Virus record (IMG/VR): IMGVR_UViG_3300045455_000024
Span: 1 to 24,592 of that record
Origin: a virus
Length of the DNA: 24,592 nucleotides
Direction: 5' to 3' (one strand)
Positions within the stretch are counted from its first letter, which is position 1. Each line of letters starts with the position of its first letter. Both the position numbers and the translations under genes were made by a program. The notes beneath the pieces are model-generated. The model saw nothing but the letters and a program-made list of their open reading frames with translations, did not search any database and was not told where the DNA came from. Below are positions 18,015-22,945 of the stretch, one piece after another.

Positions 18015-18407
18015 CTATGACAGGATTTTTTTCAGCTTGTCCTTTGCGCGGTTAACGGCATGGCGAATAGCTGATTCATCTTTCCCTTCGAGTTTGGCTA
18101 GGTCTGTGTATGACCAGCCCTCAATACAGCACTTTTGAATAAGGTATTGCTGACGTTCTGTAAGCTGCGACATGGCATGGCTGACTGCTTCAGAACTCAT
18201 AAGGTCAGCAAGTAAGTCTGTACCGTCAGAAAAGAAGCGCACATCCTCATAGGTGAAGGTGCTTAATTGGGTGTGGCGGTCAGGACGGCTGTTTCGCCGG
18301 TCGTTGCTCTTCTCTGCTGCCACGGATTCCAAGTAGAAGGTTCCGACCTCGTCGGATACTTCCAGTTCGATAATTTTGCCATCTGCGTCTTTGTAATTGA
18401 TTTTCAT
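18015..18407 (-). CDS. sigma-70 family-like phage protein (region 4)
   Basis: A 130-residue protein. The C-terminal part, LTERQQYLIQKCCIEGWSYTDLAKLEGKDESAIRHAVNRA with KDKLKKIL after it (given in pieces: residues of about 83-130), is a clear sigma region 4 helix-turn-helix. The N-terminal half lacks a recognisable region 2, so it may work as an anti-sigma-like or activator protein rather than a complete sigma factor. The Shine-Dalgarno GGAG is sequestered in a hairpin with a GAAA tetraloop immediately before the ATG, which predicts post-transcriptional control. It follows the zinc-ribbon gene after a 156-base structured leader. Confidence 0.85.
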   Translation of the reverse strand: MKINYKDADGKIIELEVSDEVGTFYLESVAAEKSNDRRNSRPDRHTQLSTFTYEDVRFFSDGTDLLADLMSSEAVSHAMSQLTERQQYLIQKCCIEGWSYTDLAKLEGKDESAIRHAVNRAKDKLKKILS

Positions 18408-18530
18408 TGTTTGGCTCCTTTCGGAGCCTGAACAAGCAACTACAAAGCAAAGAACGAGCCTAAACGCATAGCTTTACAGCTACTTGTCAGGCTCGTCCGT
18501 CATATTTAATCTCTGCCGCTTATAGCGGCA
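18408..18530 (-). ncRNA. structured leader of the sigma-like gene, candidate RNA switch
   Basis: In 5'-3' order on the minus strand: hairpin TGCCGCT-ATA-AGCGGCA (18530-18514); segment 1 ACGAGCCTGA (18496-18487); inner hairpin TAGCT-GTAA-AGCTA (82-69 of 18400s); segment 2 AGGCTCGT (18461-18454); segment 3 TCAGGCTC (18431-18424); and segment 4 GGAGCC (18418-18413), which contains the Shine-Dalgarno. Segment 1 can pair perfectly over eight bases with segment 2 or with segment 3, while segment 3 can pair with segment 4 through GGCTCC-GAAA-GGAGCC. The 1-2 fold hides the ribosome-binding site; the 1-3 fold frees it. Confidence 0.55.
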
Positions 18531-18563
18531 TTTGCGTCGTGCTCAGTACAAGGTACTCAGTGG

Positions 18564-18782
18564 TTATTCAATTTTTCTCAATCCGACTTCTGCTTTACAG
18601 TGGTAGCATTTAGTGTAATAGTCCGCTTTCCAGGGGTCATTCTTTTCCATCACGTGTAACTCTGAATGTGTATTCTGCTCAGCATCAATCAGCCGACCGA
18701 AACCACAAGCTGGACAGGGTAATCGCTTTTTTTGATACTTATGTCCGAAGGGCTTCATTCGCTTTACCGTATTTGTTTGCAT
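18564..18782 (-). CDS. small zinc-ribbon protein, first early gene
   Basis: A 72-residue protein starting at ATG 18782 after GGAGGTGTTCCT. Two CxxC pairs, Cys23/Cys26 in LPCPACGFGRL and Cys59/Cys62 in YTKCYHCKAEVGL, form a typical zinc ribbon. It is probably nucleic-acid binding or a protein adaptor. It is the first gene after the repressor/protease pair and an operator-like site lies between, so it likely heads the early operon. Its specific function is not known. Confidence 0.82.
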   Translation of the reverse strand: MQTNTVKRMKPFGHKYQKKRLPCPACGFGRLIDAEQNTHSELHVMEKNDPWKADYYTKCYHCKAEVGLRKIE

Positions 18783-20121: not shown

Positions 20122-22945
20122 TTATATTTTTGAGAGTCGAGCGTGTACCAAGGGAAGAAGTATTTTGTCGATTTCTATACGAAATTCCTCGTCCTCAAGA
20201 TATTTCTCACAGAATTCTTGGTTCTTTGTCATGCGGCTGAGAACGACATCCATAATAGTGTTGTCGTAGATGATTTTGAACAGGTCAAGCGGATTCTTGG
20301 AACGTAGCACTAATTCGTCGATGGTAGCCATATCCTCCACTATCTGCTCAAGAACCTTATCCTCATTAGTGAAATTTGTGCCGAGCCGTTCATTGAGTTT
20401 AGATAAAATCACAGAGAGATTTTCTTGCTCATCTTCAAGAGGAAGCCCCGTACCGGAAGTTTTGCCATACAACACGCCGTCCTCTTTTACTAAACTGATA
20501 GTTCCCTCGTATACTCTCTGAAGACGGTAATACTGAAGTGTCACATCGTTATCAAGGCTCGGCGTGCGTGTTCCTCCATCTTTTGGCAGCTTGCGAATCA
20601 GGCACTTGGCGTAAGCATAGAATTTATGAAGGTTCGCATCACCAAGGCTGATTATATGCGTGAGGAATGAATACAGGCGAATAAATTTAGAGAGCGCGCC
20701 TTTAAAGTCATTTTATCCTGTTCTTCGGTCAATGCCTCGTAACGGTCGACGGCAGGGTCAATGAAAGAGTTCAGCTTTGCCAAGTCGATGTTGCCCTGCG
20801 CCTTTGATTCCTTAAAGAACACCTTGGCAAAGGCATCAATCTCGTTGTCCGTATATAGCATGAAGCTGTCCAGTACATTTTTAATGTCATAGATAGTGTT
20901 CGGGTCGGTTGTCTCAGCTACGCCGGTTCCCTGATAGTAATCCTGGAACGCTTTCTCAATATCCTCCGGGGAGTTGACGAAGTCCAATATAAAGGTCTCC
21001 GTTTTGCCGGGGCAGGTTCGATTGACACGGGAGAGCGTCTGAACCGCCTTAACACCGGACAGCTTCTTATCGACATACATTGTGTGCAGAAGCGGCTGGT
21101 CAAATCCGGTCTGGTATTTCTCGGCGACGAGCAGAAGCTGATATTCCCCGGTTGCGAATTTATCTACCGTTTCAGTGTCAGGAAACTTGTTCAGATTTGC
21201 TTCTGTGTATTCCTTAAACTCTCCAGTCACATTGTCTTTAACCATGCCGGAAAATGCCACCAAGACACCCAAGTCCGTGTAGCCCATTTTTTTGATGTAC
21301 TTTTGGAACTCAAAAAAGTAACGAACGGCATGGAGTCGCGAACCTGTAACGAGCATCGCTTTCGCTTTGCCGCCGATACGGTGCTGAACTTGACTGCGGA
21401 AATGTTCCACAATGACCTCGGTCTTTTGGGCCAGGTTATGCGGGTGCAAGCTCATATACTTGCCAAGAGCCTTGTTTGCCTGACTTTTCCCATAGACAGG
21501 GTCGTCGGCAATCTTCTTACCAATTTGGAAGTAGGTCTCGTATGTCGTATAGTTTTCGAGGACGTTGAAAATGAACCCCTCCTCGATAGCCTGCCTCATG
21601 CTATAAAGATGGAACGGTTCGGGTTTTCCAGAAGCAGTCTTTGTTCCAAATATCTCAAGCGTTTTTTGCTTCGGTGTAGCGGTGAATGCGAAAAACGAAA
21701 GATTATCCTGCTGACCATGCGCCGCCATTTCAGCCGCGATTTCCTCATCGGGATCCATTTCCTCGGCTTCGGCCTTCGCTTCCTCAACGGCATACTCGTG
21801 GAGCTTTTTTTCGATGGCGTCCTCGCCCTGTGCAGAAATATCAGCGAGAACCTCCTTAAGCCGCTCACTCGCCTTGCCCGTTTGGGAAGAGTGCGCTTCG
21901 TCAACAATGATTGCAAACCGCTTTCCGGCGGTCGCCACATTTTTAACATCTACAAATGGGAATTTTTGCAAAGTGCAGATGATGATTTTCTCTCCCTTTT
22001 CAAGAGCGGTGGTCAGTTGTTTTGAGTTTTTATCGACGCGTACAACTACGCCAGGCTTATGCTCCATATTGTAGATGTCGCGCTGAAGTTGTTTGTCGAG
22101 AACACGGCGGTCGGTAATTACAATAATACTGTGGAACACCACTTCGTTGTTGCCATCGTGCAGGTTCGCCAGATGATGGGCGAGCCATGCTATAGAATTT
22201 GATTTGCCTGAACCTGCTGAATGTTGTATAAGGTAGTTCTTGCCTGACCCGTTTTTGAAAACGTCATCCACGATTTCGCGCACTGCGTCCAACTGGTGAT
22301 AGCGCGGGAATATCAGCTTCTCTTTACCTGTTTTCTCGTCTTTTGTTAGCTGGACAAAGCGATGGAGGATGTCGAGCAAGCTGTCCTTCCGCATGACTTC
22401 CTTCCAAAGGTATGAGGTGCGGTAATCGCCCTTCACAGGCGGATTGCCCGCTCCCTTGTCGTAGCCTTTGTTGAACGGGAGAAAAACTGTATCCAGCTTC
22501 TTAAGCCACGTTGTCATCCAGACTTCCTCGGTATCCACAGCGAAATGCACGAATGACGTGTTATTTGGAGGACGTTTTTATCGTACAAATCCGAAAGGCT
22601 CTTGTTCATACCACTTCCTGGCTTGAAATAGGCGAGCCGAATGGGCACACCAAGATCAACGATTCCGTGGCGAAGCACATCAATCATCCCACGCTTGTCA
22701 AGTTCGGCGCACAAGCGCTTCAAAAACTCCCGCTCCACATCCGCGCCGTGACGTTTTTCCAAATCCACCCATGCTTTAGGTTGTGAATTTTTCACAAAAG
22801 CGATAACAGCCCCTGTATCCATCGCCAATTCACGGCTAAACGCGGAAGGACTGCCCTTGACGTATCGATCGGTTTTTTTCGCACCGTTCGTCAGCCAGTA
22901 TTCAATTTCCTGTTCAAAGGTTCGCTCTTTTGTGTCTATAGCCAT
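20122..22945 (-). pseudogene. hsdR: type I restriction enzyme R subunit, disrupted
   Basis: HsdR cuts DNA and translocates it with an SF2 motor. Three pieces in different frames cover the family. The first (22945 to about 22556) starts MAIDTKERTFEQEIEYW and reaches NKSLSDLYDKNVLQITR. In the family the next 70 or so residues contain the nuclease core (Asp in NENSIDLVLF-like sequence, then ELK). Here they are missing: the sequence jumps to VHFAVDTEEVWMTTWLKKLD (about 22550) in another frame. The second piece keeps the motor: QHSAGSGKSNS, VDEAHSSQTG, FTATPKQ and QTLSRVNRTCPGK. A further frameshift in an A run at 20711-20714 separates it from the last piece (RLYSFLTHII to the end), whose frame is open without a start. 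The motor could be made; cutting seems impossible. Confidence 0.88.

Follow-up and report, generated by a model that had tools for sequence, protein, structure and literature searches.

The leader of a sigma-like gene in the window, the whole 24,592-nucleotide stretch of IMG/VR virus record IMGVR_UViG_3300045455_000024 that was analysed, is probably (a chance of about two in three) a two-level attenuator controlled by the tiny protein encoded upstream of it, in a cassette of Bacillota phages that resembles Com/mom of phage Mu. This reading draws on computed features: two exclusive folds and their conservation, U-rich tracts, a strict association between leader class and upstream protein type, and the likeness of one protein type (B-type) to Com.

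The leader lies on the minus strand, as do all window features given below, between the gene of a 72-amino-acid zinc-ribbon protein (A-type; 18564-18782), the proposed cognate RNA-binding regulator, and the gene that would be under control (18015-18407). The latter encodes a protein of 130 amino acids and is sigma-70 region-4-like (PF08281, E 4.4e-9; phrog_11138, E 1.1e-21), not mom. It is flanked by an HTH/ImmA pair on one side and by DUF2800-DUF2815-PolA genes on the other, a place that fits its preliminary labelling as an early regulator. A bacterial genome (L242) carries a near-identical copy of the small gene, the leader and the sigma-like start, so an assembly artefact is unlikely. Upstream of the immunity genes, the window also encodes a SWI2/SNF2-type helicase with similarity to a type I restriction R-subunit domain (20652-22550).

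From its 5' end, the leader comprises a conserved block common to class A leaders (its start, GTACTGAGCACGACGCAAATGCC, at 18527-18549), a small hairpin GCCGC-TATAA-GCGGC found only in the long form of class A (18515-18529), a terminator-like hairpin of segments 1 and 2 (18452-18497) whose helix is kept in all class A leaders, and, 3' of it, a U-rich tract GTTCTTTGCTTTG (18443-18455; 5 T in 8 nt in the window). The Shine-Dalgarno sequence (SD) AAGGAGCC (18413-18420) is located in the 3' arm of the hairpin GGCTCC-GAAA-GGAGCC (18413-18428). This SD-hiding hairpin and the 1:2 hairpin make up the OFF fold. The preliminary description had proposed that segment 1 (18487-18496) pairs perfectly over eight bases with either segment 2 (18454-18461) or segment 3 (18424-18431), and that segment 3 otherwise sequesters the SD; both the segments and the SD hairpin were found as described, as were the GTAA and GAAA loops. 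The 1:3 pairing is real, and the eight bases first reported are only the tip of a helix three times longer, of about 24 bp. Its 5' strand (18471-18494) and 3' strand (18424-18448), the 3' end of which is the anti-SD, form 24 pairs with one bulge; the duplex has -34.7 kcal/mol, whereas shuffles average -12.8 (0/1000 as good). This long alternative is referred to as the ON helix.

Structure beyond chance was confirmed for the window leader, a 140-nt stretch of which folds at -57.5 kcal/mol (z -6.5), with none of 200 shuffles as good. The OFF fold is the thermodynamic default, with the class A SD of the window unpaired at 0.00. When the terminator 3' arm and segment 2 were blocked in silico, this value rose to 0.68. 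The class means of unpaired SD after the same block were 0.35 (A), 0.23 (B) and 0.40 (C), and the opening is thus partial in many leaders and works for some only.

Relatives were collected from homologues of the sigma-like protein, and patterns for the three main leader classes were then run over viral contigs. True matches are followed nearly always by a small sigma-like protein, belonging to several subfamilies. The homologous leaders fall into at least three classes (A, that of the window, B and C) with unrelated sequence and the same plan: a conserved 5' block, a terminator-like hairpin with U tract, segment 2, segment 3, the SD hairpin and the start codon. In class A the 1:2 hairpin is the terminator itself, whereas in classes B and C the 1:2 pairing encloses a separate terminator hairpin. 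The 5' blocks are nearly invariant and differ between classes. Some relatives (L068, L069, L071, L073, L106 and L153) lack the SD lock while retaining block and terminator, an indication that the terminator is the older or the central target. Three further leaders before a sigma-like start (class D; L002, L017 and L072) have other sequence and a longer layout, and in L017 a small upstream ORF carries PPRFCDVVIEDGKIFLEKK, reminiscent of the C-type motif. Upstream of the sigma-like gene in L044, L045, L023-L025 and L029, the terminator-like hairpins and the stems that hide the SD have different sequences again and may represent additional classes, and cassette-like blocks stand before other genes (HTH regulators) or degraded regions in L092, L097, L224, L225 and L234-L237. 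Among phage isolates, the search for relatives of the sigma-like protein returned none and that for relatives of the B-type protein returned one.

Both exclusive folds are conserved across classes A, B and C. Against dinucleotide shuffles, the 1:3 duplex of class A has a mean z of -7.4 (0/1000 as good for 11/11 leaders), that of class B a z of -4.1 (19/19 at p<0.05) and that of class C a z of -4.0 (40/40 better). Swapping partners across classes mostly destroys the pairing (own class -32, -25 and -18; other classes -8 to -17); the exception is B with A (-24), since both use GGAGCC/GGCTCC. The covariance analysis called for in the preliminary description found compensatory changes in homologous leaders, clearest in classes B and C. 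With structures drawn from one member and counts inflated by sequence kinship, the ON helix of class C had 93.2% of cells paired (20-43% when slid) with 15 double changes (4.4 in shuffles) and its SD hairpin 88.9% with 7 (1.9); the ON helix of class B had 90.7% with 16 (7.0) and its OFF fold 91.8% with 9 (3.3); the ON helix of class A had 87.8% with 5 (2.4), all in the loop part, and its OFF fold 98.5% with little variation. The class A ON helix is thus supported mainly by conserved pairs, with compensation confined to its loop part. The paired fractions of all six alignments are well above those of the slid versions; counted as pairs with at least one double change, the alignments do not exceed shuffles, so that the strength lies in cells and score.

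A feature missed in the preliminary description is that the 1:2 hairpin looks like an intrinsic terminator. A U-rich tract (at least 5 T in 8 nt) follows the hairpin in 67/69 leaders, with 5-8 T in 11/11 class A leaders, and the combination of a GC-rich hairpin and a U tract marks the leaders as putative intrinsic terminators. Because the tract follows the 1:2 hairpin, transcription is probably controlled as well as translation.

The class of the leader matches the type of the protein encoded upstream, which is a zinc ribbon for class A, a Com-like zinc ribbon for class B and neither for class C. The match held for A in 15/15 loci, for B in 21/21, for terminator-only B in 12/12 and for C in 51/51, or 99/99 classifiable loci with no mismatch, once the many rows scored 'none' that proved to be pattern hits in coding DNA without relation to the leaders, or on the strand opposite a true leader, had been set aside by eye, sequence by sequence. 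In the reverse direction, where loci in bacterial genomes were picked by the small protein alone, 17 of the 20 readable loci then had the cognate block (C-type 6/7, B-type 9/11, A-type 2/2), and an 18th, the remaining C-type locus, had its terminator part. One phage (L165, and the near-identical L183) holds two cassettes on one contig (L165:10446-11579, minus strand): first a B-type gene, followed directly by a B block and terminator, and then, about 1 kb further along, a C-type gene whose C leader precedes the sigma-like gene. A 48-amino-acid basic protein (phrog_5079, 1.5e-18) is encoded between the B-type gene and the leader in L006, L007, L099 and L141, and upstream of the B-type gene in L074, so gene order differs between loci, the B-type gene remaining close to the leader.

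Which subfamily of sigma-like protein is encoded downstream is nearly independent of leader class. On a quick tree of the adjacent sigma-like proteins, in which many branches are weak, class requires at least 31 changes (shuffled mean 37.4), and the well-supported branches alone force 8 changes for C, 8 for B and 6 for A. The ImmA gene further upstream partly follows class (7 changes against 15.1 expected; 33 rows). Small gene and leader travel as a unit among phages, because their types match in 99/99 loci while the sigma-like subfamily shows almost no linkage to class. Plain physical linkage may explain part of this perfect association, because no sequence common to the classes lies between small gene and leader and there would be no site for homologous exchange there; by contrast, the classes resemble one another in the SD/start region, where a crossover could take place.

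Phage Mu provides, in Com/mom, the textbook example of a phage zinc-ribbon protein that opens the mRNA of the next gene. Com, a translational activator and the only studied relative, exposes the start of mom by binding a hairpin that adjoins the structure concealing it; its selected RNA motif consists of CC(N)2-3GAG within a loop that a C-G pair closes (PMC6483171). B-type proteins fall into phrog_6417 ('translational regulator') in 21/23 members and align with Mu Com by hhalign (probability 91.5, E 8.7e-7), and they score 19.7 bits against the Pfam Com model PF10122, below its cut-off of 22.9. The A-type and B-type profiles align with each other (probability 96.8, E 2.2e-10), and the A-type protein of the window aligns directly with Com at a probability of 54%. 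The class A and B proteins have two CxxC pairs and a gene directly upstream of the target. Class C proteins are without CxxC pairs, align with neither the A-type nor the B-type profiles, and were ruled out as Com relatives by hhalign, which gave no significant similarity to Com (probability 5.8). No Pfam or PHROG family was found for the C-type protein, whose structure is confidently predicted as a five-stranded sheet (model m242e5ca573cb, L176:4826-4981; pLDDT 94.5) with no convincing match in a fold search against the PDB (best Z 5.0). The B-type model weakly resembles ribosomal protein bL33 (E 0.034).

The RNA of class B also recalls the Com target. All 23 distinct pattern-matched 5' hairpins have a C-G closing pair and a loop that begins with C and ends in GA; the closing pair is partly built into the fixed arms of the pattern (G.A[AG]C and G[CT]TA[CT]C), the loop ends are not. 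These loops otherwise vary from 8 to 23 nt and are longer than that of Com, and the stem pairs are compensated. Two variants of the block fall outside the pattern: GGCAC/GTGACC with loop C...GA (L165/L183), which fits the motif, and GTAG/CTAC with a loop that has no final GA (L068/L096). The Com loop motif was sought in the class A RNA of the window and in class C RNAs and was not seen.

From these observations we infer protein binding, termination, the direction of control and an action of the class A and C proteins like that of the Com-like B-type. By default, segment 1 of the nascent RNA would pair with segment 2 to form the terminator. In transcripts that leak through, the terminator hairpin would hold segment 1, segment 3 would pair with the SD, and the sigma-like protein would not be made. 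Binding of the cognate protein to its class-specific 5' block would keep the terminator from forming, so that RNA polymerase reads on and the freed segment 1 joins segment 3 in the long helix, exposing the SD. Translation would then be restricted to RNAs whose terminator region was open when the polymerase went through. Activation is the favoured direction because the OFF fold is the thermodynamic default and Com is an activator. As a counterpoint, the 5' block includes segment 1, and a protein remaining on the block might impede formation of the ON helix too.

The same RNA device could instead answer to a repressor, the small protein stabilising the terminator and OFF fold for dual repression of transcription and translation. 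The association and the folds are equally compatible with this arrangement, and TRAP on trp leaders offers a precedent for one protein that imposes both termination and SD hiding. It is nevertheless unlikely, given that OFF is already a deep default without protein, to which a repressor would add little, and that Com is an activator (PMC6483171). Still less probable is a small molecule or host factor that senses the conserved 5' block, with the upstream gene merely a linked neighbour. The near invariance of the blocks would suit such a sensor, and linkage alone could hold neighbours together; however, three unrelated blocks each have their own protein type without exception, B and C kinds occur side by side in one phage, the pattern-matched class B hairpins have the Com motif, and there is no Rfam family. 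The preliminary description had left the choice between a translational attenuator and a riboswitch. The attenuator, with its two exclusive folds round the ribosome-binding site of a phage regulator, stands. A metabolite riboswitch is not supported; the 5' blocks differ by class and each comes with its own upstream protein type, which points to protein control.

Pacing by ribosomes is very improbable. Segment 1 would be held open in this scheme by a ribosome that translates a leader peptide (ATGACGGACGAGCCTGACAAGTAG in the window, MTDEPDK) or by one leaving the upstream gene. An ORF does overlap segment 1 in the window, L014, L018, L080 and L084, and most loci have the upstream stop codon 1-70 nt ahead of the block; the distance, however, reaches about 190 nt, the ORF is without a good SD, and class B preserves no ORF of this kind in frame. 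A conserved translated leader ORF over segment 1 was rejected because its start codon is lost in 6/11 class A leaders (L077, L079, L083, L085, L087 and L090). Least credible is that two ordinary devices adjoin, a terminator and a stem that hides the SD and so keeps long read-through transcripts silent in the manner of T4 late genes, with the 1:3 pairing a by-product of duplicated sequence. Terminators and SD hairpins are each common, and the terminator alone is kept in L068, L069, L071 and L073. This view sits poorly with a 1:3 pairing that is far beyond shuffles and is kept, with compensatory changes, in three unrelated classes.

The attenuator under protein control may be one of a wider kind. 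Tentatively, at somewhat less than even odds, these cassettes would form an undescribed and widespread phage family in which a tiny RNA-binding protein and its own leader RNA, in mutually distinct pairs (at least A, B and C, probably D), gate a sigma-like regulator so that only transcripts antiterminated by the cognate protein are translatable. The results suggest that many Bacillota phages and prophages use Com/mom logic, extended by a transcription terminator and a long competing helix, to control a sigma-like regulator ahead of replication genes. Small proteins of no known function, such as that of the window (18564-18782) and the C-type without family match, gain a testable role, and several natural RNA/protein pairs may be available, perhaps orthogonal ones. 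The preliminary remark that no riboswitch class was recognisable was borne out: Rfam covariance models gave no match at gathering scores in the window and 20 loci, and at E up to 10 only chance-level matches, so the leader classes are RNA families absent from Rfam. The Weinberg-type DUF2800 RNA motif, which we took to be a candidate since DUF2800 lies downstream of the sigma-like gene, was rejected for want of an Rfam match. Nothing on point was found for Com-like leaders in Gram-positive phages in the openly accessible journal literature. In the same libraries and papers no description turned up of the combination, of its distribution among Bacillota phages, of the sigma-like target or of the several protein/RNA classes, while the kinds of component, Com-like control and attenuators, are already known.

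Translational attenuators of the ermC type, which are triggered by a ribosome stalled on a conserved leader peptide, share with these leaders the successive segments and exclusive pairings round the SD; here the leader peptide is not conserved. In the trp leader of B. subtilis, the pairing of one segment, under the control of TRAP, sets both whether transcription terminates and whether the SD of read-through RNA is hidden; TRAP is a tryptophan-sensing repressor ring that binds triplet repeats in RNA. In the present leaders a single segment would likewise decide both, but with no ligand, no repeats and no TRAP relative. Com/mom of Mu (phrog_6417, PF10122) shares the tiny zinc-ribbon gene directly upstream of a gene whose ribosome-binding site is hidden in RNA; by profile comparison, Com is also similar to the class B proteins, and the pattern-matched class B 5' hairpins carry its CC...GAG loop signature, closed by C-G (PMC6483171). 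The class A and C RNAs differ in being without the motif, and the C-type proteins in being without similarity to Com. Unlike Com/mom, the cassettes described here belong to Bacillota phages, come in several protein/RNA classes with longer loops, add what looks like an intrinsic terminator as well as a long competing helix, and target a sigma-like regulator in place of a DNA-modifying enzyme.
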